Shown one piece after another: positions 29,595 to 59,083 of a stretch of DNA of 64,000 bases. The position numbers and the translations under genes are program-made. How positions within the stretch are numbered: position 1 is the stretch's first letter; each line of letters opens with the position of its first letter. The notes beneath the pieces are model-generated. The model was not told the origin of the DNA, made no database searches, and saw nothing but the letters and a program-made list of their open reading frames with translations. Source of the stretch: Malus domestica (Eukaryota; Streptophyta; Magnoliopsida; Rosales; Rosaceae); NCBI RefSeq assembly GCF_042453785.1, contig NC_091661.1, positions 27,209,501 through 27,273,500 on the forward strand. Direction: 5' to 3'.

Positions 29595-30711
29595 TCCTAG
29601 AGACTCGTAGAGTACTGGAGTCAGATTCTGCAAAACTTTCTATTCTTCCTTCACTGTCGTTGTAGCATGCATGATGCATTCATCCACACGCAGAGACGAT
29701 GGACCGTCCCTATACTTCTGGCATTTCTTTTTTCTTCTTTCCTGTCGTAAAACTCTGTTTCGGGGTCTTTTGTACATGCAATATATGCCCTTGTTCTGTT
29801 CTTAACCCTTATGCTTAGGATGTCAAGTAACTACAGATCGGTACATGTCGAGTCGGGTTGATTTTATTTATTCTAGGAACAAAGTTGCTTCATAACGTAT
29901 CCAGTTTCAAGTCTGTAAACTTTGCGTATATTGGCATCAATACGAATGCTTTGTGACAGAGAATGCCTCTAAATAACATAGGAATATGCTAACTCCGTCG
30001 TCACCATTTTGCTTGCTCCACGAGCATTTCACAGCTGCATAGCAATTGGGTTTTCTCGTAGAAGAGAGAGAGGTGTCACGTGACTAAGTACGAAGAAGAA
30101 AGAAGAGAGAGAAGTACTGCGAAGAAGGGGAGAGAGGAGACAGAACAAAAGAAAGATCGATGGGGTAAAATTGTAAATGAAAAATAATTAAAATTACAGC
30201 CACGAAATCATGTGAATAATGTGAGTTTGCTGATAATTAATTAATAGGTAACTAATCCCTAAACCATTTTCACACATTTCTCATGTCATTCAATTTACTT
30301 CTGCTGAACTAAGAGCTACTTGTTCAGAAAACAAGTCTTTTAATTTTATATGGGATATTTTTTTTCTATTTTTTGTATTTTAAGAAAACCTCGACGGTAC
30401 GAGGGATATTTTATTGATAACGAAAAAAAAGTTACACCTAGTTAGGGGAGACATAGACCTTACCCCTCATAATGCTAAGAAAAGGAGAAAAACAACATTG
30501 AGTAAGAAAAGGGACATAAACCTTACCTCTCTTGAAATGAAAACAAAAACGATACAAGGGAGGGGGGAATGAAACCTAACCCCTCTAAAGCTAAACCTGA
30601 AAGAAAAATACAAGAGGATGCAGTTTGACAAAATCATACAACACAACCACACTGGCATATTCGTCACAGCAAGGAAAATGCCAACAAACTTACTCAAAGT
30701 ACAAAACAAAG
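29595..30711. other. Tail-to-tail spacer between the CIP7-like and receptor-like genes
   Basis: Contains the CIP7-like 3'UTR and, from about 30050, purine-rich sequence and the 3' flank of the minus-strand receptor gene. Most of it recurs around 39.3-39.7 kb and 42.25-42.73 kb, which identifies the segmental duplication. Confidence 0.6.
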
Positions 30712-33660
30712 CTAAACATATTCAACAATTACATGATACATTTTAAGCACTATCCTATTCAGCAACTGTGAAAGAAGAATGCTCCATGGCATGTTTACTA
30801 GCAAAGAACCAAGCACAATCCAAAACCCCGTGAAGAATCCAACTCCCAAGCTCATGTAGAACCACTTGTCTTCGAGTAAACTGTATCCTCCTCCTCCGTC
30901 TTGCTCAACTGTTGGTGGCGGTATCACCCCATTTGGGCTGCAATTCTTGTGGAGTGGAGCTCCGCATAGTTCGTTGCCGACGAAGCTAGACTGATCAAGG
31001 AGCTGCAGCTGAGTGCTTTTCGGAATTCGTCCCGTCAAATTGTTGTAGGACAAGTTTAAGTGACTCAGAAATGTCAAATTCGTCATGCTTTGAGGAATTT
31101 CACCATCAAGTTGGTTCATGGAAAAATCGAGAGATTCTAACTGTGCCATATTACCAATCTTTGAAGGAATTCTTCCGGTGAAGCGGTTATTCGATAAATT
31201 GAGTGACTGCAATGCGAGGAGGTCGGTAAGTTCTTCAGGGATCTCTCCATACATAAAGTTGCATGAAAGGTCCATGAATTTTACGAATTCCAGAATCTTG
31301 TTATATTCCATTTCTCTCCCTTTCGTTACCAAGACTGCATTCTCTACATTTGTAAATTCCATAATACCATCACTTTGCGAAAACATTGTTGGCCAAACGG
31401 ATTCTGACAAATCAGCCATGGCGCTCAAATTGTGGAAGCATCTCGGTATCGTTCCAGAGAGTTTATTACGTGCAAGGTCCAATATCTGGAGACTTTTCAA
31501 ATAACAAATTTCAGAAGGAATGTCTCCCTCAAACTCATTCGAACGAAGGTTAAGAACCTGCAACTCTGAAAGGCTTTTACCCATCCATATTGGTATGCTT
31601 CCGACAAACCCATTTCCACTAAGGTCAACAACTGACAACATGGTACAGTTTTCTAGGGAATGTGGCAATTCTCCGTACAGGTGATTATTGCGCAAGTGCA
31701 GCGATTGTAGATTTAGCAAGTATCCCATGGACATTGGGACATTCCCAGTTAGGTTGTTGTTTTCTAAATGTAGGAATCCCAATGATGTCCAATTCATCCA
31801 ACAGTCGGGTACTTTTCCAGTGAGATGATTGTTCTCGAGATGAAGAATAGAAAGTTGGTAAGGTTCATCCCTCCTACCACAGAAGAAGTGGAAAACAGAT
31901 CCAGAAAATGATGAATTGGAAAGATCAAGCCGATCTAATGAGGTGGGAACAATAGGCAATGCACCAGTGAATTGGTTGGAACCAAGATCAACTACTGAAA
32001 CAGGAGCAGCAACTATATTTTGAATCTCCCCGTACAATTGATTGTGAGAGAGATTCAGATAATCTAATTGGAATGTTAAGTTCCAAAACCAAGTTGGAAT
32101 AGTACTTGAAATTCTTGTACCAGACAAGCTTAGTTTTTTTAATTGCGTTTGTTTCTGAAGCCACATTGGCCATTCAGGTCCCAGGCGCCATGAATCCAAT
32201 TGCAAACTTTCAAGTTGAAAGGGAGGAAGCCAACCTCGACTAGTTTTCAAAGTCAATGAATTATCTTGTGCACTGAAACGCTTCAACTTTTTAAGGTTGC
32301 TAAAAATAACTTCCGACACTACACCTTCTAACGAATTATAAGATATATCCAAATCTGTTAGCATTTTGAGTTCACCAATAACTTCTATTAAAGTTCCATT
32401 AAACTGATTTCCAGATATGTCTAGTTCTACTAAGCTTGACAGATTTCCTAGGGACATTGGAATGGGACCTGATATTGAATTACCTGAAAGATCAAAGTGC
32501 CTTAAACTCTTAAGGTTTCCAATGGAACTCGATATTTCACCACGTAAGGCATTGCCATAAAGAATTAAGGACTCGAGATTGTTCAAGCTATACAACCATT
32601 CAGGTATGGTAGAATTGAATTCGTTCCCCCCAAGATTAAGAGATGTAAGACTAGTCATATTCTGAATACTGCTTGGAAGTTGTCCTGTAAGTTGATTGGC
32701 TTCTAGACTCAATTCAAGGAATTTTTGGTTAAACCACCATTTGGGCATCGGATCAAGACTAATAGAATTGTGTGACAAATCGATTTCCCTCAAAGATGTG
32801 ATATTTTGTGAACTGCCCGGAATTGGACCGTGGAAACCACAAAAACTGAGATGAAGAGAAACTAGATTTTTAATACTGAAAACCCACCTCGGCATCAAAG
32901 AATTAAAACTGTTTCCAGAAAGATCAAGGACGACCAGGGAAGTAAAATTTGTGGTGGGTAGAGGGGGAATTTGATCAAGTTCACAATCGGACATAATTAA
33001 CTCTACTAAAGAAGGGAGCGTGTTTGTAACTTGCAACCAGTCAGATGCTTTGCTAAGATTTACATAACCCAAGTCCAAGTGTTTTAGCAAAGAAAGACCA
33101 GAAATCCACTGAAGGTTCTCTACCTTCAGATTGGAATGGAAAGTACTGAGATTGAGATAGCGTAGACTGGAGAGATTTCCCAGTTTATGAGGAATTACTC
33201 CACCAAACGCTGAGTTTCCAAGATTAAGGTGTGTTAAACTTGTCATAGAACCAAAGAAACTAGGAATTCGTGTTGTACTGAAATCATTGTTGCTTAGGTC
33301 CAAGAAGTTGAGATGCTTTAAACTGAGCAAAGAAGGATTTATCTTACCACCGAAAGAAGCGTAGAAAACCCCATCAGAGTAGGAACTATTAAGGTGCAGC
33401 TCATGGATGTGGCCGGTTATGTGATCACAGACAACTCCTGTCCAACTGCAACAGTCTGAACCTTCTTCTGCAACCCATGACGAAAGCCGATTGGCAGGGT
33501 CCTCGAGATCTTGCTTGAACATCATAAGTGCTTGTCTTTCGCTTTCTTTGCAAAGCGGAGGCCAACCGGGAATTCCATTGCATAAACCAATACCGAAAGT
33601 AATGGTTGCAATAGCTAGAACCCTGATTAGTAGTAAAACAACTCTCATGCTTCTCTCCAT
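30712..33660 (-). CDS. HcrVf-like LRR receptor-like protein
   Basis: A single uninterrupted 982-residue frame, as usual for plant receptor-like proteins. Order: signal peptide (about 1-28, ending GLCNG), LRR N-terminal cap with PPLCKESERQALMMFKQDL and the DCCSWTGVVCD cysteine pair, a long array of 24-residue extracellular LRRs of the LxxLxLSxNxxxGxIP type with many N-glycosylation sites, then an acidic/Gly spacer (VEQDGGGGYSLLEDKWF), one membrane span (about 934-955, LGVGFFTGFWIVLGSLLV) and a 27-residue cytoplasmic tail without a kinase. It would sit in the plasma membrane and signal through adaptor kinases such as SOBIR1. Start, LRR cap and tail match the apple HcrVf family, whose member HcrVf2 confers scab resistance. 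Recognition specificity cannot be read from the sequence. No frame damage is visible. Confidence 0.93.
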   Translation of the reverse strand: MERSMRVVLLLIRVLAIATITFGIGLCNGIPGWPPLCKESERQALMMFKQDLEDPANRLSSWVAEEGSDCCSWTGVVCDHITGHIHELHLNSSYSDGVFYASFGGKINPSLLSLKHLNFLDLSNNDFSTTRIPSFFGSMTSLTHLNLGNSAFGGVIPHKLGNLSSLRYLNLSTFHSNLKVENLQWISGLSLLKHLDLGYVNLSKASDWLQVTNTLPSLVELIMSDCELDQIPPLPTTNFTSLVVLDLSGNSFNSLMPRWVFSIKNLVSLHLSFCGFHGPIPGSSQNITSLREIDLSHNSISLDPMPKWWFNQKFLELSLEANQLTGQLPSSIQNMTSLTSLNLGGNEFNSTIPEWLYSLNNLESLILYGNALRGEISSSIGNLKSLRHFDLSGNSISGPIPMSLGNLSSLVELDISGNQFNGTLIEVIGELKMLTDLDISYNSLEGVVSEVIFSNLKKLKRFSAQDNSLTLKTSRGWLPPFQLESLQLDSWRLGPEWPMWLQKQTQLKKLSLSGTRISSTIPTWFWNLTFQLDYLNLSHNQLYGEIQNIVAAPVSVVDLGSNQFTGALPIVPTSLDRLDLSNSSFSGSVFHFFCGRRDEPYQLSILHLENNHLTGKVPDCWMNWTSLGFLHLENNNLTGNVPMSMGYLLNLQSLHLRNNHLYGELPHSLENCTMLSVVDLSGNGFVGSIPIWMGKSLSELQVLNLRSNEFEGDIPSEICYLKSLQILDLARNKLSGTIPRCFHNLSAMADLSESVWPTMFSQSDGIMEFTNVENAVLVTKGREMEYNKILEFVKFMDLSCNFMYGEIPEELTDLLALQSLNLSNNRFTGRIPSKIGNMAQLESLDFSMNQLDGEIPQSMTNLTFLSHLNLSYNNLTGRIPKSTQLQLLDQSSFVGNELCGAPLHKNCSPNGVIPPPTVEQDGGGGYSLLEDKWFYMSLGVGFFTGFWIVLGSLLVNMPWSILLSQLLNRIVLKMYHVIVEYV

Positions 33661-33720
33661 AAAGTTCTAGTGTATGAAGTAGGTGATGTGTATGTGAATG
33701 AAGGATCCAGAGTAGTGCTA

Positions 33721-33735
33721 CCTATATATATACAC
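33721..33735 (-). promoter_or_regulatory. TATA box of the receptor-like protein gene
   Basis: On the minus strand GTGTATATATATAGG lies about 65-75 bp upstream of the start codon. The truncated paralogue has TTTATATAG at the matching place (near 43431). Confidence 0.55.
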
Positions 33736-33736
33736 T

Positions 33737-33915
33737 AGGCAGCCTCACTTTTTTTCTGAACCATCCACTACGGCATGAGCAGTTTTTCTAAACCATCCTC
33801 TACGGCATGAGACCGCATTTTCAAAATCGATGCACATCAATGACTGTAGTGGTTGGACGGACTCTTGGAATCTTTGACAAAAATCTCACAAGTGATAAGA
33901 TAAGATGGATTTTAT
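33737..33915. repeat. Receptor-gene promoter repeat, copy 1
   Basis: Part of the 5' flank of the full-length receptor-like gene. It contains the landmarks AGCCTCACTTTTTT, AACCATCCTCTACGGCATGAG, GACCGCATTTTC and GATAAGATGGA. Further copies lie at 34922-35110, 35155-35310, 35393-35545 and 43438-43628. Confidence 0.7.
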
Positions 33916-34921: not shown

Positions 34922-35110
34922 TTTTTCCTATATACCAGGGAGCCTCACTTTTTTCTAAACCATCCTCTACGACATGAGCACTTTTTCTAAACCACCCTCT
35001 ACGGCATGAGATTGAGACCGCATTTTCTAACACATCAATGAGAGTAGCAGTCGGACAGACCCTAGGAATCTTTGACAAAAGTTTCATGGATGATAAGATG
35101 GAATAATTAC
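34922..35110. repeat. Receptor-gene promoter repeat, copy 2
   Basis: Begins CCTATATACCAGGGAGCCTC, so it includes the TATA-proximal part, and continues through the AACCATCCTCTACG..GATAAGATGGAATAATTAC landmarks. Confidence 0.7.
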
Positions 35111-35154
35111 TTTCTTTGAATGGTTGGTCCTTCAAATTTAATCTCTAAATTTAA

Positions 35155-35310
35155 TCCCATCCTCTACGGCATGAGCACTTTTTCTAAACCATCCTCTACG
35201 GTATCAGACCGCATTTTCTAAACAGATGCACATCAATGAGAGTAGCAGTCGGACAGAGTCTCGGAATTTTTGACAAAAAGTTCCATAGATGATAAGATGG
35301 AATAATTACA
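35155..35310. repeat. Receptor-gene promoter repeat, copy 3
   Basis: Starts at CCCATCCTCTACGGCATGAG without the TATA-proximal part; otherwise the same landmarks in the same order. Confidence 0.7.
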
Positions 35311-35392
35311 TTCTTTGAATGGTCGGTCCTTCAAATACGTTGCATTTTCTAACACATCAATGGTCGGTCCTTCAAATTTAATCTCTAAATTT

Positions 35393-35545
35393 AATCCCAT
35401 CCTCTACAGCATGAGCACTTTTTCTAAACCATCCTCTACGGCATCAGACCGCATTTTCTAAACAAATGCACATCAATGAGAGTAGCAGTCGGACACTCTA
35501 GGAATCTTTGACAAAAGTTTCATAGCTGATAAGATGGAATAATTA
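35393..35545. repeat. Receptor-gene promoter repeat, copy 4
   Basis: A close direct duplicate of copy 3. The spacer AATGGTCGGTCCTTCAAATT also recurs between the copies. Confidence 0.7.
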
Positions 35546-35997
35546 CGTTCTTTGAATGGTCGGTCCTTCAAATACGTTGTCTTGAGCATCTCGCCCGAAC
35601 ACGAATAGTAAGGATTTTAAAGATTCGGAATGTAATGAAGAGAGGAAAACATGCTTATATGGCTAACAAGATCAAAGAAATTGCAAAAAACAACAAATGG
35701 GGAAAACTACAGAACATGGGTATTTCCTAAAACTCCATCACGTTTTCAATTCAAAATTTTCTGGGCATACAAAATGAAGCTTAGGGAATGAAGAGTAGAA
35801 TTATTACCTTTGCCAGACCCGAAGTGGTTGCAAAAGCTTGAAAAACCACATGCCAATCCTAACAAAATCGAATCGACAAACGAAAGGAAACCCATTAAAC
35901 CCACATTCCAATTCAACCAAAATTCAAACTTCACCTCAAATTAGATCACAGAAAGAGAAACAGGGGAAAACCCAAATGCAACAGGATAGAAAAACAG

Positions 35998-39225: not shown

Positions 39226-39714
39226 GTATCGTTCTCTGTGATTTATTTATTTTCTTGCAAATTTTCTACACCTGCATACAGTATCGTTCTCTCTTTCCGC
39301 GTTTAGGGGCAGCAAACCAAATGAGATGAAGTTTCGGTAATACTTTATATTCTTCCTTCACTGTCGTTGTAGCATGCATGATGCATTCATCCACATGCAG
39401 AGACGAGGGACCGGTCCCTATACTTCTGGCATTTCTTTTTACTTCTTTTCCTGCCGTAATACTTTGTTTCCAGGTCTTTTGTACGTGCAATTTATGCCCT
39501 TGTCCTGCACTTCTCAGAGATTTAAACAGAGCCCTCTTCTTAACCCTTATGCTTAGGATGTCAAGCAACTACAGATCGGTACATGTCGAGTCGAGTAGTT
39601 TTTATTTATTCTAGGAACAACAAAGCTGCTTCATAATGTATCCAATTTCAAATCTACAAACTTTACGTATATTGGCATCAATATGAATGCTTTGTGACAG
39701 AGAATGCCTCTCTA
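39226..39714 (+). pseudogene. Duplicated 3' end of the CIP7-like gene
   Basis: Matches 29398-29975 with small differences: intron-8 sequence (ACACAGTATCGTT), a jump past about 85 bp including the original acceptor, then the last coding block [18 protein letters not shown] with its stop codon at 39338-39340, and the 3'UTR landmarks GTAGCATGCATGATGCATTC and CTACAGATCGGTACATGTCG. The upstream gene body is absent. Confidence 0.85.
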
Positions 39715-39715
39715 A

Positions 39716-42147
39716 CAACCCGTCCCGAAATTTACTGTACATAAATGGTATTTTTGTATTTTCATCAAGTTTGGAAATTTATCTTCCTTTTAAAATTTGT
39801 TTTTGGTCTTAAATGGTGAGCCAAGGGGACCCACCCCCCCTGATTTTGTCCCCGAGCCCTCTTCTCTCTTTCTTCCTCTCCTTCTTCCCTTTCCCGTATA
39901 CTTCTATTCCTCTCTTCTCTATGATCACACTCACACCCAGCTGCACTCCCTGCTCGAGGAAGACACAATCACCATCTAAACCTCGTCCCTTTCCTCTTCC
40001 TCTTGCCTCTGCGCAACTCAGCGAAACCAAGAAAATAACCTCCGGCGAGTCCGACGGCTTTCGAGGCCATTACCGGCCAAACCACGGCGAGTTGGCCGGC
40101 GTGAAAGGTATCAATCTCTTCGTCTCGTCGAGTACTATAACTTTCCTTTTTGTTTCACTCAATTTCATTGAGTATTGAAGACGTTATACGCATTTGAATC
40201 TTACCCAGTTTCTGGCGACCTCCGAGGCTTTCGAGGAAATTTCCGGCCAAACCACGGCGTGTTAGATGTCGTGTGAGGTATGATTCTCTTCGTCTCTTCC
40301 AGGGCTACAACTTTTGTTTTTGTCTCGCTTGATTTCATTGAGTAGTGACAAAATTATGGCCGTTTAAAGTGGGGTGGTTTTCCGGGCGAATTTCCGGCCT
40401 TCTTCTTCCTTGGCAACAGGCCACCCGGCCTTTCCCTCTCCCTCGGGCCTTAGGCCCGTGTTGTCTTAAGCCCAAAACCCTAGCCCCTTTAGTTTTTAAG
40501 TTTTGTTAATTGGTTTTAAAACCCAAAAAGGGCTCGGGCCTTATATAAATGGCCTTGGGCCGGTTTTGATTTAAAGGGGGCTTAAAGCCCTGCCCTTGTG
40601 AGGCCTTAGGGCCTTGTGCCTGTGTGTGTGTGTGTTTTTGGTGTGTGTGTTTGGGCTAAAGCCCAAACCCCAATTTTTCCACCCTAAACCCTTTTAACCC
40701 AAAAGCCCTAGGTTCCTAAAATCTATTAGGGCCTAACCCATCCAACCCAATTCCCTTATTTTATTTAGTTCAAAACCCAATAGGTCCTAACCCTATTTAA
40801 CCTAAACCTAAACCCTAATCCGGATTTCAAGCCTAAAACCCGTTTGACCTAATTTGACCGTTGACCCCCGGTCAACGTTGACTTTAGGATTGACTTTTTG
40901 GGTTTTCGTCCGGGACCCTTCTTAGGGTAATTCGATGTTCTGAATCCGTTTCCAATGTCCATTTTCCCAAATTCAATTGCTATTATATAGTTTAATTTAT
41001 TGGACTCTTTAATGTGCTTAGGGGCAATTATTGTGACGTTTCCGTCTTTGCTAGTGGCGCAGCTTTTGACGGCGAAGTACTGTGAGTGGACCATTTCTAA
41101 AATTACATGATTTTATAGTAATTGCATAAATGATTAGCATGCCTACGGATTTATGATTTGATTTATGTGAAGCCTGATGATTTAAGATATTGATTATTGT
41201 CTCGTGTTTTGGTGAGGAATTAATTGTTAGCCTATTTTGAACTATATTTTAATATATCATATTTTCTATAAAAATCATGAACTGGTAGACTATCTGACAG
41301 ATGACGATAGGATGCTAGAACATGTTTTTGAACCCCTCTTTATAGTGTAGACGATGATCGGTAACCTATGCTATGAAGTGGTTATTTAAGAGAGGCGTAA
41401 CTATTTGTGCGTACCTGGTGGATACTATGCCGCCTGGGGCGAGGATCTGGTGTTGGCATTTAGGCCGGGAGAAATAATCCCTAGCAAAAGGCTGAGGGAC
41501 ACGGTGACAGGCATTGGGCCGGGAGGGAGTTATCTCTGGCTACGGGCACAGAGACTTAGGTGCAGGCATTGGGCCGGGAGTTATATTTATTCGGTGATCT
41601 TACTAGCAGCACACCGCGCTTACGAGACGATTTATGAGACGTTTACTGTTTTGATTTATGCGATGAGATTCCGCAATATGGCTTTTGAGATATTTTTGGC
41701 ATGCTAGGATTTTTATTAAATCCATCACTTATTATGCTAGTAGTTTTCATTTATATAAACTTTGGGGGTTAGTATGTTAATAACTGTTTTATTATTATTG
41801 TATATATAAACTTGGTCCACTCACCTTTGTTTTGCGCCCCTATTCAGGACTTAGAATCAAGGCACCTAATCCCGGCGTGAAGACACTTCCACAGTAGCAT
41901 CTTCGGATCCTCTCGATGTAGGACCCACTTCCTTATTCATCCAATTTTATCTTAATTATTTTTAGTGATTAGATTTAGTTGTATGTTCTGAGAACGTTCC
42001 TGAAATTATTAATTCTTCGTATTTTTAAATTTCTAACCCTTATTTATTTCTTATTCTTAGCTTTTGTATCAATTAATGGCTTCCGTCACCCTTGGGTGTC
42101 AGCCAGCAAGTGTCTATCATGGTATTCAGGGAATATCAGGGTCGGGG
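39716..42147 (-). mobile_element. LTR-like insertion, probably a solo LTR
   Basis: About 2.4 kb that interrupts the duplicated block after GAGAATGCCTCT. On the minus strand it starts TGACACGCCCCGACCC and ends TTTCGGGACGGGTTGTTA, which resembles long LTRs of plant Gypsy elements. There is no coding region and no second LTR in the window. Repeated CAGGCATTGGGCCGGGAG motifs lie near 41510-41585. Target duplications could not be identified, so solo-LTR status is an inference. Confidence 0.5.
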
Positions 42148-42245
42148 CGTGTCAAAATGGCAGAAAAAATAAAATAAAAGAAAGGATGAACAAAGTTCGA
42201 TCAATGAAAAGAGCAAGAAAGAAGATATTGAGTAGAAAAAAGCCG

Positions 42246-42733
42246 AAAGGTGTCACGTGAATTTGTACGAATAAGAAAGAGAAGTACTACGAAAAGAAGG
42301 GGAGAGAGAATAGAGAGAATGGAAAGAATAGACAGAACAAAAGAAAGATTGAGAGGTAAAACTGTAAATAAAAAACCAATTGAAAATACAACCATGAAAT
42401 AATGCGAGTTTGCTAATAATTAATTAACAAATAACTATTCTCTAAACCATTTTCACACATTTCCATGTCATTCAATTTACGTTTGCTAAATGAAGGGGTA
42501 CTTGTTACGAGAACAAGTCTTTTTAATTTTATAAGGGATAATATTTTTATAAAACAAAGTGAAAAAGAACTACAATCAAACAAAGGGACGAAATTTGAAA
42601 AAAAAAACATACAATTCAACCATACTGGCTTATTCGTTGTAGCAAAGGAAATGCCAACAACAAGAAGCTCATTCAAAGTACAAAACAAAGCTAAACATAT
42701 TCAACAATTATATGATATAGTTTAAGCACTATC
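42246..42733. repeat. Duplicated 3' flank of the receptor-like gene
   Basis: Matches 30073-30740: AGGTGTCACGTGA, GAAGGGGAGAGAG, CTAAACCATTTTCACACATTTC, then GCTAAACATATTCAACAATT next to the coding end. The right part of the segmental duplication. Confidence 0.8.
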
Positions 42734-43366
42734 CTATCCTGAAAGAAGAATGCCCCATGGCATGTTTACTAGCAAAGAACCAAGCACAATCCAAAACCCC
42801 GTGGAGAATCTAAGTCCCAAGGTCATGTAGAACAACTTGTCTTCGAGTAAATGGTATCCTCCTCCTCTGTCCTGCTCAACTGTTTGTGGCGGTATCACCC
42901 CATTCACTTTGCAAATCTTGTAGAGCAGAGGTCCGCAAAGTTTGTTGTTGACGAAGCTAGATTGATCAAGGCTCTGCAGTTGAGTGTTTTCCGGAATTTG
43001 TCCCGTCAAATTGTTGTAGGTCAAATTCAAGTGACTTAGAAATGTCAAATTTGTCATGCTCGAAGGAATTTCACCATGGAGTTTGTTCGTGGACAAATTG
43101 AGAGATTCTAACCATCTCATATTACCAATCTTTGAGGGAATTATTCCGGTGAAGCGATATTTTGATAAGTTGAATGACTGCAATGCGAGGAGGCCTGTAA
43201 GTTCTTCATTGAAATCTTGCTTGAACATTAGAAGTGCTTGTCTTTCGCTTTCTTTCCAAAGTGGAGGCCAACGGAGATTTCCATTGCATAAACCAATACG
43301 GATAGTAATGGTTGCAATAGCTAGAAACCTGATTAGTAGTAAAACAACTCTCGTGCTTCTCTCCAT
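42734..43366 (-). CDS. Internally deleted HcrVf-like receptor protein, 210 residues
   Basis: Paralogue of the 982-residue gene. Signal peptide and start of the LRR cap (to KQDF, about residue 50) are fused in frame to the last LRRs (EELTGLLALQS), the acidic spacer and the membrane span. About 755 residues, including nearly the whole LRR array, are gone. The cap Cys is replaced (PPLW instead of PPLC), and a small 3' deletion removes most of the cytoplasmic tail (ends MPWGILLSG). The frame is open from ATG to stop and the promoter is kept. It could be expressed as a small membrane protein or be a non-functional remnant; neither is shown. Confidence 0.8.
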   Translation of the reverse strand: MERSTRVVLLLIRFLAIATITIRIGLCNGNLRWPPLWKESERQALLMFKQDFNEELTGLLALQSFNLSKYRFTGIIPSKIGNMRWLESLNLSTNKLHGEIPSSMTNLTFLSHLNLTYNNLTGQIPENTQLQSLDQSSFVNNKLCGPLLYKICKVNGVIPPQTVEQDRGGGYHLLEDKLFYMTLGLRFSTGFWIVLGSLLVNMPWGILLSG

Positions 43367-43437
43367 ATAGTTTTAGTGTATGAAGTAGGTGATGTGCATG
43401 AGCAATGAGCTATCCAGAGTAGTGCCAGCTATATAAA

Positions 43438-43628
43438 CTAGGGAGCCTCACTTTTTTCTAAACCATCCTTTACGGATGAGCACTTTCTACGGCATGAGCA
43501 GTTTGTCTAAACCATCCTATACGGCATGAGACCGTATTTTCAAAATCGATGCACATCAATAACAGTAGCTGTCGGACGGACTCTTGGAATCTTTGACAAA
43601 AGTTTCATAGATGATAAGATGGATTAAA
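43438..43628. repeat. Receptor-gene promoter repeat, copy 5
   Basis: 5' flank of the truncated receptor gene, with the same order of landmarks as copy 1 (AGCCTCACTTTTTTC to AGATGATAAGATGGA). Confidence 0.75.
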
Positions 43629-43893: not shown

Positions 43894-45732
43894 AAGGGTA
43901 AATCACCAAAATGGTCCCTGAGATTTGCATAACTCATCACTTTAGTCCATGAGATTCCAAATCGATAGAAGTGGTCCCTGAGATTATCCATCATCCATCA
44001 TTTTGGTCATTCCGTTAAAAACTCTGTTAAGTGTCCCGGAACTCTTGGCCGGAAGTTTTGGCAATTTTCAAAGCTTCGTAACGCAATCGTTTCTTAACCA
44101 AATTCGACCCATACTATATCAAAATGAAGATAGGAAAGTGTAGAATAAGATTATACCTATTTAGAAGCCCAATGGTTGCCGGAGATTGCCGGAAAATAGC
44201 CTCAAAGTTGACTGTTCCGAGTGAAAACTTGAAAACTCGCCGGAAACTAGGTAAACTTTAAGGCCCTGTTTGGCACACCGTATAAAGCACCAAATAGTAC
44301 TAATAATACGGTGTACGGTGTTTGGTGCCGTTTGGATAATAAGCACCGGATTAAATAATCTGGGCCCACCTTTTTTACTCGGTGTATACCTGCTTCCTAA
44401 TCCCGTCCAATTTCTCCGTATAACTTAGTCGGCCTCTTGCTCGTTCTCGCTCTCGCTCTCTGCTCGCTCTCCGCTCGTTCTCACTCTCGCTCTCCGCTCC
44501 TTCTCACTCTCGCTCTCCGCTCATTCTGCCATCACCTGCAACTGGCAGGTGAGGAACCTGGGAACTTCCGCTCGTTCTCACTCTCGCTCTCCGCTCCTTT
44601 TACCATCGCCTACAACTGGCAGGTGAGGAACCTGGGAACTTTGAATCAGGAGATTGTGAAGGTAGCAAGAAATTTGGACTTAGAATTGCAGGGCTTTGCC
44701 CCGAAGGGAGCCCTTCCAAAAATTCTCAGAGGCCAAGGCTGAGCCCAGGCCAGTAAGGGGGTTTGGGATTCTTTTGCAGTCGGGGAAAGAGAAGAAGAAG
44801 AGAGAAAGGGAAGGAGTTTGGGGGTGCAGCGGAGAGATCTGGGTTTCATTATTTGGGATTCTTCTATTATGTAGTCGGGGAAGAAGAATGGAGAGAGGGA
44901 GGGAGTTTGGAGGTGCGGCGGAGAGATATGGGTTTCATTTTTTTTTTTTAAGTTTAATTTTATTTTAAGTTTTCCTCCTATCCGATATAATACCAAACAC
45001 TGTATAAATAATACGGTCATTAATCTGATACTGCACCAAACGCCCGACTAATTTAGTCAGTACTGTCCGGTGACTATTTATCCTATCCGACAAATATAGT
45101 CAGTACAGTCCGAGCTGCCAAACAAGGCCTAAATGTTCATAACTTCTTCAATACTCAACGAAATCAAGTGATTCAAAAACAAAAATCATACTTCTCGACG
45201 ATAAAAAGAGAATGGTACCTTTTTTGATGGCTAACTCGTCGTGTTTTGGCCGGAAAATGGCTCGAAAGTGGCTGTCTTGGTTTCGAGTTAGCCACTTTCG
45301 AGCTGTTTTCCGGCCAAACCACGGCAATTTAGCCGTCAAAAAAGGTACAATTCTCTTTGTATTGTCGAGAAGTATGATTTTCATTTTGAATCACTTGATT
45401 TCGTTGAGTATTGAAGAAGTTATGAACGTTTAAAGTTTACCCAGTTTTCGGCGAGTTTTCAAGTTTTCACTCGGACCAGGCAACTTTGAGGCTATTTTTC
45501 GGCCATCTCTGGCAACCATTGGACTTTGAAATAGGTATAATCTTATTCTACACTTTCCTATCTTCATTTTGATATATTATGGGTCGAATTTGGTTAAGAA
45601 ACGATTGAGTTACGAAGCTTTGAAAATTGCCTAAACTTCCGGCCAAGAGCTCCGGGACACTTAATGGAGTTTTTAATGGAATGACCAAAATGATGGATGG
45701 TGGACAATCTCAGGAACCATTTTGGCGATTTA
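43894..45732. mobile_element. Long foldback (MULE-like) element
   Basis: Two long arms in inverted orientation meet near 45285. The left end is GGTAAATCACCAAAATGGTC and the right end is the complement of GGTAAATCGCCAAAATGGTT. Arm similarity runs over more than 450 bp with few mismatches (for example GAAGATAGGAAAGTGTAGAA in both). The left arm holds an extra duplicated block of about 65 bp near its tip and is split by another transposon at 44262-45129. Flanks ATGAAG and ATGAAAGG may be a target duplication. No transposase is present. Confidence 0.75.
44262..45129. mobile_element. PIF/Harbinger-type non-autonomous element inside the foldback arm
   Basis: 868 bp between TAA target duplications (44259-44261 and 45130-45132). 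Terminal inverted repeats are GGCCCTGTTTGGCA and TGCCAAACAAGGCC. Removing it restores the arm sequence seen in the right arm. The interior has CTCGCTCTCCGCTCNTTCTC tandem repeats and two copies of CAACTGGCAGGTGAGGAACC. Confidence 0.8.
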
Positions 45733-47141: not shown

Positions 47142-50100
47142 CTACTGAGGAAGAAGCCATTTGGAACCCTGAATATTGCCAAGGCTGATGAAAGGTTTTG
47201 CTTCTGCATCGCTTAGTTTTCTGGTGTAGCGAGCTTGACTGGTTATATTTGACCCTTGACCCCAATTGTTGTACTCTCCATAGAACAAATTGCTGCAAAA
47301 ATACCACATAAATCAAATTAATATACATGGATTCCAAGAATAATAAAGCACTTTAAAAAAAAATGGGCAAAACAATAGGAAAGAATTTGCTTACGATTCA
47401 CGTTCAGGGTGGCCAAAATCACTCCACCGTTCAGGGTGGACAATATCCGCTATGTCGGTGTAGGCAACCACCACGTTAGGGCTGCTTCCCCAAGCCCTAC
47501 CCAAATATGTCCGACGAGCATACGTGGTGCCAGTTATTTTGCAATGCACAAACGAAAATCCACTATCCTCCGAAGCACTGTCCCTTTGTTGTGCCGTTAT
47601 CACTGTCAAATTCCGTTCTACGACATGTATCTCAGTGTTCTGCACCAAATTATCACACTATACATGAGAAGAGGATAAAAAATATAACATGGTGTTGGGG
47701 CTTAAAAAGACTTCTCTACTTTGGAGACGTTTATCTGACAAAGAAGAATGTAATGCAGTGGAATTGATAGGCAAGAGAAAGAAAGAATACTCAAAGTATT
47801 ACACAAGATTTTTTATTCACTCACAAACTTAGCACAAGAGGAAACACTCAAACACTCCTAGAAGCTTTGTTGCTTCTTCTCACTTCTCACTTCTTGCTCT
47901 CTTGGTTGTTACAAATGGTGTGGATGCCTTCTCCTTTTATAGGCATGGATGGAACCTTGGAGAAGCATGGAAGCATCATGCTAGAGATATCTAGATAATT
48001 CCACTACCTTCCTAAATTAGAATTATCTACATTAATCTTGTATGTTGGTGGAATCCTCACCATTCTTCTAGACTCTTCCACCAACTTGAACTTTGCTAGA
48101 ATTCTCTAGCATGTGCATGGATCTTTCTTTGTGTATGGGCCGGATCAATTGTCTTGGGACAAGACAAGATTACATTTCAACATCCCCCCTTAATATTGTC
48201 TTGTGATGCCAATTGATTTCCTCAATCTAACAAAGTCTTCTTGTTTGAGTGGCTTGGTGAATATGTTGGCGACTTGGTCTTGTGACTTCACATATTCCAC
48301 TTGCACATCCTTTCTTGCAATGTACTCTCTTATGTAGTGATAGCGGGTATCTATGTGTTTGCTCCTATCATGGAATACTGGATTCTTTGCTAGAGCTATT
48401 GCAGACTTGTTGTCAACATAGATCTCTGTTGGCTCTTCTTGTGGCATGTTTAATTCTTTTAGCAAGTTTCTCAGCCATATTGCATGATAGACACATGAGG
48501 TAGCAGCTACGTATTCAGCTTCGCAGGTAGAAAGAGTGACAATCGGTTGTTTCTTCGACATCCATGTGAATGCAATGTCTCCCATGAAGAACACAAATCA
48601 GTAGTGTTTTTTCTATCGTCGGAATCTCCTGCCCAATCATTGTAGCTATATCCAGCAAGTTTGCAGTTATCAGAACTTGAATAGAACAAGCCAAAGTTAA
48701 TAGTACCTTTAAGATATCGAAGAATTCTTTTGGCAGTCTTCAAATGTGTAGTTGTGGGATTCTCCATGTAGCGACTGACTAATCCAACGACATAGAGAAT
48801 GTCTGGTCTTGTGCATGTCAAGTAGCGCAAGCTTCTAACTAAACTCTTGAAAAATGTTGGATCTACACTTTCTCCTTCGTCATGCTTGGTTAGTTTGACT
48901 TCGTACTCCATTGGCGTGCTTATGGGCTTGCAGTCTTCCATTTTGAACTTTTTCAGTATCTCCTTTGTGTAGCTTTCTTGGGAGATGAAAATGCCTTCTT
49001 TGTTCTGCTTGACTTCAATGCCTAGGTAGTATGCCATCAACCCAATGTCGGTCATCTCGAATTCTTTGGTCATCACTCTCTTGAACTCTTCATACATGCT
49101 TGGATTACTTCCGGTGAAGATTAGATCATCCACATATAAGCACACAATTAAAATATCTCAATCTTTGACTTTGACGTAGAGAGCATGTTCATGAGGGCAC
49201 TTGATGAAGTTGTTCTCTTGAAAGTACTTGTCGATGAGACTATTACATGCTCGTGGCGCTTGTTTTAACCCATAGAGGGCTTTCTTCAGCTTTAGAACTT
49301 TATTTTCATGCCTTTTGATTTCATAGCCTGTCGGTTGCTGAATGTAGACTTCTTCTTCAAGGACTCCATTTAGGAAAGCGGACTTCACATCCATTTGTTG
49401 AATCTTCCATTTGTTTTGAGCTGCCAAAGAAATTAGTAATCGTATAGTTTCCAACCGAGCTACAGGTGCAAATACCTCATCATAGTCGATTCCGGCTCTT
49501 TGACTATAACCCTTCGCCACTAATCTCGCCTTGTATCTTTCGACCTCTCCGTTGGCATTTTTCTTTGTCTTGTACACCCACTTGACTCCGATGGCTTTGT
49601 GTCTTTTCGGAAGAATAGCGAGTTCCCATGTATCATTCTTCTGGATTGCTTCAATTTCTTCATCCATTGCTTTCCTCCACTTAGTATCTTGTATTGTTTC
49701 TTGGAAGTCAACTGGTTCACAATCAGCAAAGAGACAGAAAAGTGTAGGATTATCAAGTCTTTCAGCTAACTCATAGAGATCTCGTAGACTTCTTGTGTGT
49801 GGTACTTCTCTTTCATTTAGACTCTCACTTGATGATGTTGATGCTGGTGAATTGCCATGATTGGTTGATATTGGTGAAGCAGGTGGAGTGGTGGATTCTT
49901 GTTGAACCTCTCTTGCTTGCTTCATCATCCCTTGTTCATTATCTTCTTCAAACTGAGGAAAGAAATGAAGATCACCTACATGGGAGCCAAAATCCCATTC
50001 TCCTTCTTCATCGAACGTCACGTCTCGACTGATCACCGTTTTCCCATTGTTTGGATTATACAGCTTATAGCCTTTTGAATTTGAGTCATAGCCGATGAAG

Positions 50101-53100
50101 ATGAACTTCTCACTTTTGTCGTCGAGTTTGGTTCTCCTCTCGTCTTGTACATGTACATGGGCTATGCTTCCAAAAACTCTTAGATGGGAGATACCTGGTT
50201 TTCTTCCACTCCATGCTTCTTGCGGAGTCTTTCCCCACACACTTCTTGTTGGAGACCGATTTGATAGGTAGACAGCACATGCTACCGCTTCTGCCCACAT
50301 CTCCTTAGGCAATCTCTTACTTTTGAGCATGCTTCGAGCCATGTCGATGATGGTTCGATTTTTTCTTTCCGCCACACCATTTTGTTGAGGGGATCTTGGA
50401 ACTGTCAAAGGTCGACGAATTCCATTGGCTTCACAGAATTCTTGAAATTCCTTTGAAGTGAATTCTCCTCCTCGATCAGATCTCATGGCTTTGATCTTGC
50501 AACCACTCTCCTTTTCTACAACGGCTTTGAATTTCTTGAATGCTCCAAAGACTTCTAATTTCTGCTTCAAGAAATACACCCAGGTTTTCCTTGAAAAATC
50601 ATCAATGAAGAGAAGGAAATAATTATTTTTACCCAAAGAGCTTGGTTTTATTGGACCGCACACATCGGTATGAATGAGCTCGAGTGGCTTCTGGGCTCTT
50701 GTGGTCGACTTCTTTAGAAAGCTTTTCCTGAACTGTTTCCCAAGTAAACATCATTCGCAAACTTGATCAGGGGGCTGATACACGGTAAGCCTCTCACCAT
50801 CTCCTTCTTGGATAATAACTTCAATCCCCCAAAATTAAGATGCCCAAAACGAAGATGTCAAAGCCATGATGTGTCTTTGTAACATGTTTTGAGGCACTTT
50901 GCAACATCATTTTGAATATTCATAGGAAACATCCTATTCTTTGACATTTTCACCTTGGCAATTAATCTTCCTTTGTCATCTCTAAGAAAAAGGCTATAAT
51001 TTTTCATGTGAATATCATAACATTTTTCTAAGAGTTGACCCAAGCTCAAAATGTTGCTTTTCATATTGCGCACGTAGTAGACATTTGAAATTAATTGGTG
51101 ACCGCCATTTTTCAGGGGAATAAGGATGTTACCTTTTCCTTTTACGGGTATTTTGGATTCGTCTCCAAAAGAAACGTTGTCACTCACCGATTCATTGAGC
51201 TCAACGAACATGCTTCTTCTTTCGCACATGTGGTTGCTGGCGCCGGTGTCAAGGTACTATGTATAGTCTTGGTCTCCATCATTGTTCTTGCATGCTAGTA
51301 GCACAATGTCATTATCTTCTTCCTCTTCTTTCACATAATTGACCTTCTCATCAAGTCTGTTGCTTAGAGCTCTACATTCCCAAGCATAATGCCCAAACTT
51401 TTGACAGTTGTAGCATTGAACTTGAGATTTTTCATACCTCAAGTTTGAGCGCCCTCTTCTACGACCTTTTGTTGAGCTTCCTCCTCTTTCATAGTTGATA
51501 TGGTTGTTGAAGTTCCAACCACGTCTGCGTCCTCGACCACCACTTCTTTCGTACTGGCTTTTCTCGTTATCGAAGCTTTCTTCTTTCTTCTTTGGCTGAA
51601 CATGCGTCTTGAGGAGCTGCTCATCATTCCCTTGCCTCTTTTTATGTTTCTCTTCATATGCTTGTAGCGAACCCATTAATTGCTCTATACTAATTTCTTC
51701 CAAGTTTTTAGTTTCTTCAATCGTCACGACAATGTGCTCGAACTTGGGGTCCAACGAGCATAGTATATTCTCCATAATTTTAACATCTTCTAACTTTTCT
51801 CCGTTTCTTTTTAATTGATTGGAAACGGCTAAGACTCTTGAAAATTAATCAGAGATTGATTCAGACCCTTTCATTTGTAGAGATTCAAACTCACCTCTTA
51901 ATACTTGAAGACGAACATTTTTCACTTGTTTGGCTCCTTTGTAAGAGGTTTGAAGCTTCTCCCATGCTTGCTTGGCAGAAGTTGCACTGGAGACCTTCTC
52001 AAAGCCATTGTCATCTAATGCTTGGTAGATGAGGTAGAGAGCCTTCTTGTCTCTCTTTCTTGAATCTTTCAAACTCTCTTTCTGGGGTTGAGACAGGGTA
52101 GCTTCATCTTCTGGCTCAGTGTAGCCTTTCTCCACGACTTCCCATGCATCGTGTGCTCCCAAAAGGGCCTTCATTTTGATACTCAAATTATCGAAGTTGT
52201 TGTTGTCGAGCACTGGAACTTGGAAGGCTGCCATAGCGTTGCTAGCCATAGCTCTGGTACCACTTTGTTGGGGCTTAAAAAGACTTCTCTACTTTGGAGA
52301 CGTTTATCTCACAAAGAAGAATGTAATGCAGCGGAATTGATAGGCAAGAGAAAGAAGGAATACTCAAAGTATTACACAAGATTTTTATTCACTCACAAAC
52401 TTAGTACAAGAAGAAACACTCAAACACTCTTAGAAGCTTTGTTGCTTCTTCTCACTTCTCACTACTTGCTCTCTTGGTTGTTACAAATGGTGTGGATGCC
52501 TTCTCCTTTTATAGGCATGGATGGAACCTTGGAGAAGCATGGAAGTATCATGCTAGAGATATCTAGATAATTCCACTACCTTCCTAAGCTAGAATTATCT
52601 ACATTAATCTTGTATGTTGGTGGAATCCTCACCATTCTTCTAGACTCTTCCACCAACTTGAACTTTGCTAGAATTCTCTAGCATGTGCATGGATTTTTCT
52701 TTGTGTATGGGCCGGATCAATTGTCTTGGGCCAAGATAAGATTACATTTCAACACATGGGTGGGTCGACTATAAACTTATACTTCTAAATATAACATTAG
52801 CAAATAAAAGACACTTCATAATTATTTAAGTTGATTATGTAACTCTACGTTGCAATGTGACGTTCAACCTAAAAAAATTCTCACGGACCTTAATTACGTA
52901 CCAAGTAGAGGGGTTTTCCTTTTCTAAATATGAAATCTACAGTGCCTTGAATGAAGCAGTCTTTGAACAAATGTAACCCCTTGTAATCATAAAGGGTGTC
53001 CTGATATCCAATCATTTTGCAATTGTAGAAGGCTGCCTTGTTCCCGGATATCTGCACTGCAACTGCCTGTGCACCCTCTCTTATTCCATCCGGCTCCGGC

Positions 53101-54001
53101 GCTGAATTCTACAACAAAACAAAAAAATCCCTACATTAATCTATTAATTTTTAATTACCATCAAAATGACGCTCTAAGTGTGAGTTTGGAGAAGATGAAT
53201 TCTAAGGGGACTCTCTCAAAAGTAAGACTTTCAATGCCCAACACTATAAAATAGGATAGTGCTATTCATACACCCTCTTTTATCTCCCACACATCCTTAT
53301 TAATATTTTTTCATTGATATTTTCAATTCATTTGATCCGATGGTCAAAAATTAAGAGGGGTATGAAGTAAAAATAGGTATGTAGATAGCACTACCGTAAA
53401 ACATTGTGCGGAAAACATGAGGTGACAAAAAGTCTACGAAGAACTTCACTTTTAAGAGAGTCCCCTTATATAGTACTTTCCTTGGAGAATTACATACTAT
53501 AATAACAAGATTAACAGCCCTAAAATAGTCTGATTCCACAATCAATGTGCCACTATACACAGTCCCATACTTCTGCGCGGTGCCATCAAATGTAATATTT
53601 GGCATACTTTTTGGCGATCCATAAAATGTAACAAAGGGTTTGTTATGTGGAATTGTGATTTTCTCGTTGTACACTCCCCCTTTGATGTACACAAACATGC
53701 GTTTTGTGTTCCCGGCTGGAATGCTATTGATGGCGTCGGTGATGGTCTTGAAGTTTCCACCTCCATATTGCATGACCTTGATGACCTGGGGAGCATGCTC
53801 AGCCGCAACAAGGGCAGGGTCAAGCGTTGACTTTCGTTCATTGTAGGTTTTCACATTATTATCGAACCAGCTAGCTACTTGGGAACTATCGGAAGGTATC
53901 GGTATCGTATCATCGGCGATGGCAGCGGTACTTGAAGTGAGCAGAATTGTTATTATCATCAGAGATGCATTAATGAACATGCATGGCGTTTTTCCGGCCA
54001 T
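47142..54001 (-). CDS. Pectin methylesterase A, PPME1-like, with transposons in its introns
   Basis: Secreted cell-wall enzyme that removes methyl groups from homogalacturonan. Four exons: 53498-54001, 52902-53108, 47395-47639 and 47142-47292, totalling 1107 nt in phase, 368 residues. A signal peptide is present and there is no PRO inhibitor domain, as in pollen-type PPME1 enzymes. Motifs: [23 protein letters not shown] (first catalytic Asp), TVDFIF (second catalytic Asp), YLGRAW (Arg), ending [10 protein letters not shown]. Odd: the usual Gly after DFIF is Arg (DFIFRKGK). Intron 2 contains a complete copia element (47693-52754) and intron 1 a nested MITE pair (53205-53466). Splice sites are all intact. 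Tandem paralogue of the gene at 57.4 kb; function with these introns and the changed motif is uncertain. Confidence 0.87.
47693..48182 (-). repeat. 3' LTR of the copia element
   Basis: 490 bp, downstream LTR in element orientation. Differs from the other by one extra T in a T run and 13 substitutions. Confidence 0.93.
48183..48191 (-). other. Polypurine tract of the copia element
   Basis: AAGGGGGGA on the minus strand directly before the 3' LTR. Confidence 0.85.
48190..51256 (-). pseudogene. Copia POL region, broken
   Basis: Order: protease LDTGAS (about 51250), integrase zinc-binding start HLRFGHL, integrase core (DDFSR.., [16 protein letters not shown]), reverse transcriptase ([18 protein letters not shown] near 49140) and RNase H (TLSTCEAEY near 48540). 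Stops at 50858-50860, 50751-50753 and 49158-49160, and a frameshift near 48595-48605, interrupt it. No single product can be made. Confidence 0.88.
51257..52249 (-). pseudogene. Copia GAG region, broken
   Basis: Starts at ATG 52249. The capsid-like part continues to a premature TAA at 51845-51847. Reading on in the same frame reaches the zinc knuckle [14 protein letters not shown] (near 51385), then a second stop (TAG, 51257-51259) just before the protease motif. Both stops lie where related elements read through. Confidence 0.85.
52251..52262 (-). other. Primer-binding site of the copia element
   Basis: TGGTACCAGAGC on the minus strand, three bases after the 5' LTR; close to the initiator-tRNA-Met complement TGGTATCAGAGC used by plant copia elements. 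Confidence 0.85.
52266..52754 (-). repeat. 5' LTR of the copia element
   Basis: 489 bp, upstream LTR in element orientation. Should contain promoter and transcription start. Confidence 0.93.
53205..53466. mobile_element. Outer MITE in intron 1 of pectinesterase A
   Basis: Inverted ends AGGGGACTCTCTCAAAAGT and ACTTTTAAGAGAGTCCCCT with TA on both sides. Its interior is interrupted by a second MITE (53259-53391). Relatives at 14862-15032 and 15246-15427. Confidence 0.75.
53259..53391. mobile_element. Inner MITE nested in the outer MITE
   Basis: 133 bp, ends GTGCTATTCATACACCC and its near complement ending GTAGATAGCAC, with TA target duplications (53257-53258 and 53392-53393). Same family as 5750-5953. 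Confidence 0.75.
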
Positions 54002-57415: not shown

Positions 57416-59083
57416 CTACACTTTTGGATTTGGAGGAGGAAGCAGCCATTTGGAACCCTGAATATAGCCAAGGCTAATGAAACGCTTGGCTTGTTCGTCA
57501 GTCAGCTCTTTGCTCAAATTTCTCTTATTATTCTTACTTGAACCTGGACCCATGCACTTGTACTCTCCGTAGGACACAGTTCTGCAATATCAAATTACTT
57601 ATTAATTAATTTCAAAAATTAATTATACGAAAATGCTTAATTTTGTTTTAATTAACATAATCCTGCTTACTTGTCGCGTTCAGAGTGGTTATCGTTGCTC
57701 CATCCGGCAGGGTTTACCACCTTGGTCATGTTGGTGTATGCATACACCACCTGGGGTCTGGCCCTCCAAGCCCTTCCCAAGTATGTGCCAATGCCTGTCC
57801 CAGTTATCTTGCAGTGAACAAATGAGTATCCAGTGTCCTCCGAATCTGAGTCCCTTGCCTGTGCTGTTATCACCGTTATTCCATTATCCCCCAGCACATG
57901 CAACTCAGTGTTCTGCACCCATTAATTATATGTTGCATTATTAATCACCAACCATCAAAAGTTCAAAACCATGACTTGACAAACAAAAAGATTAACTATA
58001 TGTTTACCCACCCAAATAATGTTTTGGGAGGGGGACGGGGAACAATCATGTGGATTCCACTGTTAATATGATGAGACTCAAATAATCCCCACTTGACTAA
58101 TGTTGTTCCTATATATGACATGATCTCATACATAATTTTTTAATGGAAGAAAAAGATAATTGTATAAGTCAATCATATGTAACTTTTTTCTCACATGTAC
58201 TTGAAATACATTGCTACGGTCAGACTCTGCCATGTAAGGTTAAAATCACCGGCTTTATTTAGGAATTATGGGTTAGATTGGGAGGCATTAATTACCAAAT
58301 AGAGAGACTTTCCACTTCCCCAAATGAAATCCACAGTGCCTTCAATGTAGCAGTCCTTGAACAAATGATTGCCCCTGTCATCACAAAGGGTGTCCTGAAA
58401 CCCAAACAGCTTGCAATTGTACAAGGCTGCTTTGTTCCCCGACACCCTCAATGCCACTGCCTGCGCTCCCACTCTTTTCCCATCTGGCCTTGGTGAAGAG
58501 TTCTACACAAACCAATCCACCAAAAATGTTAACCAAAAATAATTATATAACGGTAATATCACGTGATATGACGTAAACAACTTACTTTAATAATAAGATT
58601 AGCAGCAACAAAGTAATCGGATTCTGCGATCACTGTAGCACTGTTTACAGTTCCATACTTCTGGGCCGTGCCATCAAATGTCAAAATTGGCATATTCGTT
58701 GGAGAACCATATAATGTGACAAATGGTTTATTTCGCGGAATCGTAATTTTTTCTTTGTACTCTCCTGATCCAATGTACACAATGACACGTTTGGTATTCC
58801 CGGCCGGAATGCTATTAATGGCGTCGGTGACGGTCTTGAAGTTTCCTTTTCCATCTTGCATGACCTTGATGACTTTTTGACCAGCCTCGGCCGTCACAAC
58901 GGCAGGGTCAAGCGTTTTCTGCCGCTGTGTGTACGGCTTCACATTGTTATTGAACCACGTGTTGACTTGGGAAAGGGCGGCTGGTACCGGTGTATTGTCG
59001 TCCGCCATGGCAATGGTGGCAGAGAGGAGAATTGTCATGATTAAAGCTGCATGGACGACCATGCATTTGTTTTTTCCGGCCAT
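57416..59083 (-). CDS. Pectin methylesterase B, PPME1-like
   Basis: Four exons: 58586-59083, 58296-58502, 57671-57912 and 57416-57581, 1113 nt in phase, 370 residues. Signal peptide (to about IAMADD), no PRO domain, and a short N-terminal region before the pectinesterase fold. Motifs: [35 protein letters not shown] and YLGRAW; ends [19 protein letters not shown]. Catalytic Asp pair and Arg are present. Exon structure is the same as in pectinesterase A, with compact introns, and so shows what that gene looked like before its insertions. Likely role: pectin demethylesterification in pollen or pollen-tube walls, by similarity to PPME1; tissue is inferred. Confidence 0.92.

Follow-up and report, generated by a model that had tools for sequence, protein, structure and literature searches.

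A 210-codon remnant of an LRR receptor-like protein gene in the apple genome, very probably a truncated pseudogene

Analysis of a 64,000-nucleotide stretch of Malus domestica DNA (the window; contig NC_091661.1, positions 27,209,501 to 27,273,500) suggests that a 210-codon open frame on its minus strand is very probably an ordinary truncated pseudogene of an HcrVf-type LRR receptor-like protein, in a Vf/Rvi6-type cluster. The frame (the stub) is homologous to intact relatives, has lost essential parts and, on small counts, carries a neutral substitution pattern. The family name HcrVf is our presumption, and no named HcrVf sequence was among those compared. The features concerned are listed below in window coordinates.

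42734–43366, minus strand: truncated receptor-like protein frame, 210 aa, with signal-peptide end, three LRRs, C-cap and membrane span (ORF list; blastn to the paralogue; Pfam LRR_1, E 6.5e-9).
43211–43366, minus strand: 5' block, 52 codons, homologue of family residues 1-52, with M5T, F22I, P31L, G32R and C37W private relative to six relatives.
43202–43216, minus strand: deletion junction, residues 51-55 (DFNEE); a GA/TGA overlap fits the frame, AGAT does not.
42740–43207, minus strand: 3' block, 156 codons, with the last three C3 LRRs, LRR C-cap, acidic juxtamembrane stretch and a membrane span in which GxxxG is lost (R186).
42691–42738, minus strand: cytoplasmic-tail remnant, out of frame after an 8-nt deletion, reading RIVLKLYHIIVEYV in the next frame up to the old stop.
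43367–43620, minus strand: conserved proximal promoter and 5' leader, 254 nt, with TATA-like TTTATATAG.
30712–33660, minus strand: full-length paralogue, 982 aa, the comparison reference (ORF list; Pfam; solved-structure match).

According to the ORF list, the stub runs from ATG to stop over exactly 42734-43366. It was aligned by blastn with the paralogue 10 kb away in two colinear blocks of ~85% identity, gaps counted, which paired 43211-43620 with 33505-33901 and 42603-43208 with 30630-31237; the homology extends into the flank on the promoter side and on the 3' side. The two colinear blocks, the kept upstream sequence and the Pfam LRR matches indicate homology and not a chance frame. A preliminary description of this DNA had the start of an HcrVf-like protein fused in one frame to the last LRRs and membrane span, with about 755 residues missing and the promoter and start kept, and all of this was borne out. 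The first 52 residues are joined to the last three LRRs and the span, a single residue, N53, replaces paralogue residues 53-808 (756 residues) for a net loss of 755 codons in frame, and the ATG is retained with the 254 nt upstream of it.

Most of what defines the receptor ectodomain is missing. The paralogue has a clear N-cap (LRRNT_2, E 4.6e-14) and many LRRs by Pfam, whereas no LRRNT domain was found in the stub at E values up to 0.1, and its LRR matches are confined to residues 54-137. Of the N-cap cysteines, Cys37 is changed to Trp, and those at paralogue positions 70, 71 and 78 are deleted. The long C1 LRR domain and the island domain are lacking, and three C3 LRRs remain in place of four. 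Both C-cap cysteines are present, as is the acidic juxtamembrane stretch, VEQDRGGGYHLLEDK, which has a net charge of -2 compared with -3 in the paralogue, as counted from the sequence. The N-terminal hydrophobic segment, residues 4-28, is also kept (maximum 19-residue KD 2.19, against 2.39 in the paralogue), with an arginine at position 23 that occurs in none of the six relatives aligned. AlphaFold2 prediction from a two-sequence alignment (mean pLDDT 42.5, pTM 0.24) was uninformative either way. For the 156-residue block, the stub scored below the paralogue in all 55 solved LRR chains common to both lists of 60, though these chains are interrelated and do not count as independent.

Relatives were sought with the stub frame in its own genome (651 Mb, 19 contigs), giving 41 matches including the stub itself, with 40 of 42 candidates scored; both stub blocks together were covered by no match other than the stub itself. 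The best of these lie on contig C1 at 27.2-27.7 Mb, plus one on C6, and the copies are clustered in both orientations. A scan of viral contigs found no relatives. Fourteen stretches were aligned; they represent 13 paralogous loci when L010 and L011 are counted as a single split gene, and 15 loci with the stub and its neighbour added. This sample excludes the matches on C4, C8, C11 and C15, as well as a C1 match at 3.03 Mb. A single long frame is present in six of the 15 loci, namely the neighbour (982 aa), L012 (974 aa), L013 (1045 aa), L014 (967 aa, with a shortened signal peptide), L016 (1017 aa) and L019 (939 aa). The other nine (the stub, L009, L010/L011, L015, L017, L018, L020, L021 and L022) have no full-length frame. 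L010 and L011 probably represent a single receptor gene, interrupted near residue 740-773 by an insertion of ~5 kb. In L015, a 2-nt deletion around position 3563-3576 shifts the frame of a near-complete copy just before the last LRRs, leaving a 790-aa frame without a membrane span.

When the 3' block was analysed together with its flank, the tree made the stub sister to L016/L017 (97% ultrafast bootstrap), with L015 joining next, and the neighbour 10 kb away was more distant; support for this placement fell to 48% for the 3' block without flank. Raw identity over the 3' block was 82.9-87.4% to the nine closest copies and does not single out L016, L017 or L015. The promoter was closest to those of L015 (91.6%) and L016 (90.6%), while the value of 0.738 for L013 comes from a misaligned promoter and carries no meaning. 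The 5' coding block was 91-93% identical to six genes and was unresolving alone; a seven-gene 5' tree did not group the stub with L016/L017. One parental gene and an internal deletion would suffice to produce the arrangement, judging from the aligned sequences. Fusion of two different paralogues was considered and, though conceivable, is not needed, the promoter being nearest L015/L016 and the 3' block with flank sister to L016/L017.

Microhomology-mediated deletion through a shared AGAT had been proposed for the break points, and this part of the preliminary description did not hold. AGAT is not workable as a simple junction, because its codon phase differs between the two break points and joining the sides at it would give CAA GAT CCC TGA, which ends in a stop codon. 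In the stub, two nucleotides are present beyond what an AGAT join would leave. An AGAT junction is possible given an insertion of two nucleotides there. An overlap of GA or TGA (2-3 nt), in phase on both sides, would be simpler, because the TCAA of the stub agrees with the 5' family sequence (CTCAAG/CTCAAC). Read from its relatives, the exact parent being absent from the sequences compared, the junction would most simply be such an overlap.

The membrane end of the protein is also altered. The only GxxxG of the span is lost through a G-to-R change (GFFTG to RFSTG); among the 14 other sequences aligned, 13 have a readable frame at this point and 12 of those retain a GxxxG, while the exception, L020, is itself broken. 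The span is still hydrophobic but weaker than in the paralogue (maximum KD 1.69 versus 1.89). An 8-nt deletion removes the cytoplasmic tail, so that the frame ends in LLSG-stop, where the tails of L016 and L017 begin SGLLNRIV. The tail is present in all nine close relatives aligned.

A dN/dS comparison, put forward earlier as a check, was too blunt to decide as a pairwise measure of stub against paralogue (0.81, bootstrap 0.44-1.34), and private changes among the paralogues were therefore counted. In the 3' block, across ten genes, the stub had 24 private replacements to 9 silent changes and the nine others pooled had 30:25 (Fisher p = 0.115). In the 5' block (51 codons), the counts were 5:1 for the stub and 5:8 for six other genes. 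Both blocks together gave 29:10 for the stub versus 35:33 for the others (Fisher p = 0.025), on counts that are small and that combine changes from before the deletion with later ones. The stub proportion, 29/39, matched the neutral expectation of 0.70-0.77 (0.735 at kappa 2; binomial p 0.71-1.0, 1.0 at kappa 2), whereas that of the other genes, 35/68, was below it (p 8e-6 to 1e-3; 1.5e-4 at kappa 2). This contrast should be conservative, because some comparison genes are themselves broken: four of nine for the 3' block (L009, L010, L015, L017) and two of six for the 5' block (L011, L015).

Some of the changes counted as private in the 3' block (6/24 replacements and 3/9 silent) share their base with at least one of the distant copies L018-L021. 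With these dropped, the ratios were 18:6 versus 22:19 for the 3' block (p = 0.116) and 23:7 versus 27:27 with the 5' block included (p = 0.021), and the pseudogene conclusion is unchanged. The stub differs at 16 of 102 positions invariant in nine relatives, compared with 0-9 for each other gene under the same test, and at 9 of 61 positions invariant in 13 others, including N17Y, G87N and G133R (block numbering). At block position 38 it has leucine, as do L018-L020, where the nine close relatives have phenylalanine. The terminal branch of the stub is 0.128, against 0.011-0.069 for the nine close relatives.

That the frame has stayed open speaks at most mildly for use, because neutral simulations from the present sequence, with substitutions only and run at 0.065 and 0.1 substitutions per site in place of the branch value of 0.128, stayed stop-free in 21% and 10% of runs, respectively. 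It points mildly to some constraint, or to a loss younger than the branch as a whole. Between stub and paralogue, no gaps occurred in 624 aligned coding nucleotides, against 18 events in ~650 aligned flank nucleotides, one of them the tail deletion. By eye against other paralogues, many of the flank gaps are not the stub's own, and the contrast is therefore weak evidence of constraint.

The stub may still be transcribed. According to a review (PMC10873587), expression is generally obtained from HcrVf2 promoters above 115 bp in length while shorter ones failed, and a transcript is plausible because the kept 254-nt proximal promoter exceeds that length. Just upstream of this promoter is an inverted repeat (43959-44261 and 45430-45731) with arms 92-93% identical and ~1.17 kb apart, which looks like a transposable element. 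In the 3' flank, 39712-42244 is an insertion-like stretch; the matching gap in the paralogue flank (29971-30067) is only ~100 nt. Upstream of the paralogue, three tandem copies of ~200 nt of its promoter segment (33729-33901) lie at 34929-35579 with no attached gene seen, and a related unit looks expanded in the promoter of the C6 copy (L012). Elsewhere in the window, translated frames at 48507-51775 resemble, on reading alone, a Copia-type retroelement (integrase, reverse transcriptase and a gag-like zinc knuckle), and two similar short frames at 53351-54001 and 58559-59083 resemble by eye the N-terminal parts of pectinesterases.

Several other accounts of the stub were weighed. The locus might act not through a protein, but as a gene-conversion donor or by giving rise to small RNAs that target its paralogues, which appears quite improbable. 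Identity to close paralogues of 83-93% over ~0.8 kb of promoter and coding blocks (L013 promoter left out) and the clustered copies in both orientations are consistent with such a role; so are the replacements shared with L018-L021, which would also fit an old exchange. The long private branch, however, argues against recent exchange with close copies. Least likely of all would be an assembly artefact concealing a full-length gene at the site. Clustered similar repeats misassemble easily, but the stub is not a collapse of the 14 other sequences aligned because its 3' block is no closer than 87.4% to any of them; the tail deletion and the private changes are its own, and the window contains no N.

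It had also been suggested that the protein could compete for a SOBIR1-type adaptor without recognizing a ligand. Such a dominant-negative or decoy mini-receptor, occupying SOBIR1 or BAK1 at the plasma membrane through its span and last three LRRs, would have several parts in place: the start and proximal promoter, of a length generally active for HcrVf2 (PMC10873587), a hydrophobic segment at the N-terminus, three C3 LRRs with the two cysteines of the C-cap, and a span that is still hydrophobic. RLP23 chimeras described in PMC10834447 point to the TM region as recruiting SOBIR1 and the eJM region as recruiting BAK1; a foreign cytosolic part was tolerated, with SOBIR1 still bound, but a foreign TM abolished SOBIR1 binding. 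Ve1 is reported to work with its GxxxG residues changed to alanine, although the same paper (PMC4049777) cites other work in which a second-glycine change abolished Cf-9 function. For Cf proteins, PMC13425104 describes the membrane span and basic cytoplasmic tail as together setting SOBIR1 affinity, and Cf-4 with a shortened tail as still binding. Loss of the tail may not be fatal by itself, because in PMC10755186 InterPro is reported to have detected no cytoplasmic domain in several of the apple homologues studied. None of the Ve1, Cf-4 and RLP23 cases combines an arginine in the span with loss of the tail, as the stub does. The competitor idea is weakened by the G-to-R change, the deletion of the basic tail and the neutral ratio of private changes, as well as by the reduced juxtamembrane charge and the loss of most of the N-cap, and we regard it as very improbable. 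A search of one open-access collection returned no paper pairing the phrase 'truncated receptor-like protein' with SOBIR1. Slimmer still are the chances of a narrower version, a putative 210-aa membrane-anchored protein under an HcrVf-type promoter that would dampen neighbouring receptors by holding BAK1 rather than SOBIR1; BAK1 would be the target because GxxxG and tail are lost and the last LRRs and juxtamembrane stretch are kept.

The other outcome allowed by the preliminary description, an inert product, is favoured by the neutral ratio, the lost GxxxG and the deleted tail. On the pseudogene reading, we infer that a single relative of L016/L017 underwent an in-frame internal deletion, net 755 codons, that took out most of the N-cap, the island domain and all LRRs except the last three; the ends were probably joined at the 2-3 nt overlap. 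A further 8-nt deletion would have taken the cytoplasmic tail, and the remaining sequence would have drifted at a neutral replacement ratio. Function would be absent, and any protein still made would most likely misfold or do nothing.

The case matters mostly for annotation hygiene: with its kept promoter, an open frame of 210 codons invites annotation as a receptor-like protein gene, yet the changes it carries are at the neutral ratio. With nine of 15 sampled loci damaged, it also shows how many copies in a Vf-type cluster are broken. If transcribed, the stub would be a natural test of the effect of a minimal C3-TM fragment on receptor-like protein signalling.

The best solved relative of the full-length paralogue is PDB 7drb (E 1.2e-170), a membrane-localized LRR receptor-like protein by its entry title, which we take to be RXEG1; of that fold, the stub retains no more than the final three C3 LRRs. 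The family resembles the HcrVf/Vfa genes of the apple Vf (Rvi6) locus in encoding Cf-like LRR receptor-like proteins, the paralogue doing so in one continuous frame. Copies lie at 27.2-27.7 Mb of C1, with one on C6, a layout also like that of the HcrVf homologues placed on LG 1 and 6 in PMC10755186. Unlike those genes, the stub has neither tail nor island domain, has lost most of the N-cap and retains just the last three LRRs. The nearest parallel in kind may well be Vfa3/HcrVf3, described as truncated and regarded as a pseudogene or non-functional (PMC5452129, PMC10873587), and likewise a truncated member of the same kind of cluster. The damage there is given as a premature stop (PMC10755186) or a transposon-like insertion (PMC10873587), whereas that in the stub is an in-frame internal deletion together with an 8-nt deletion of the tail.
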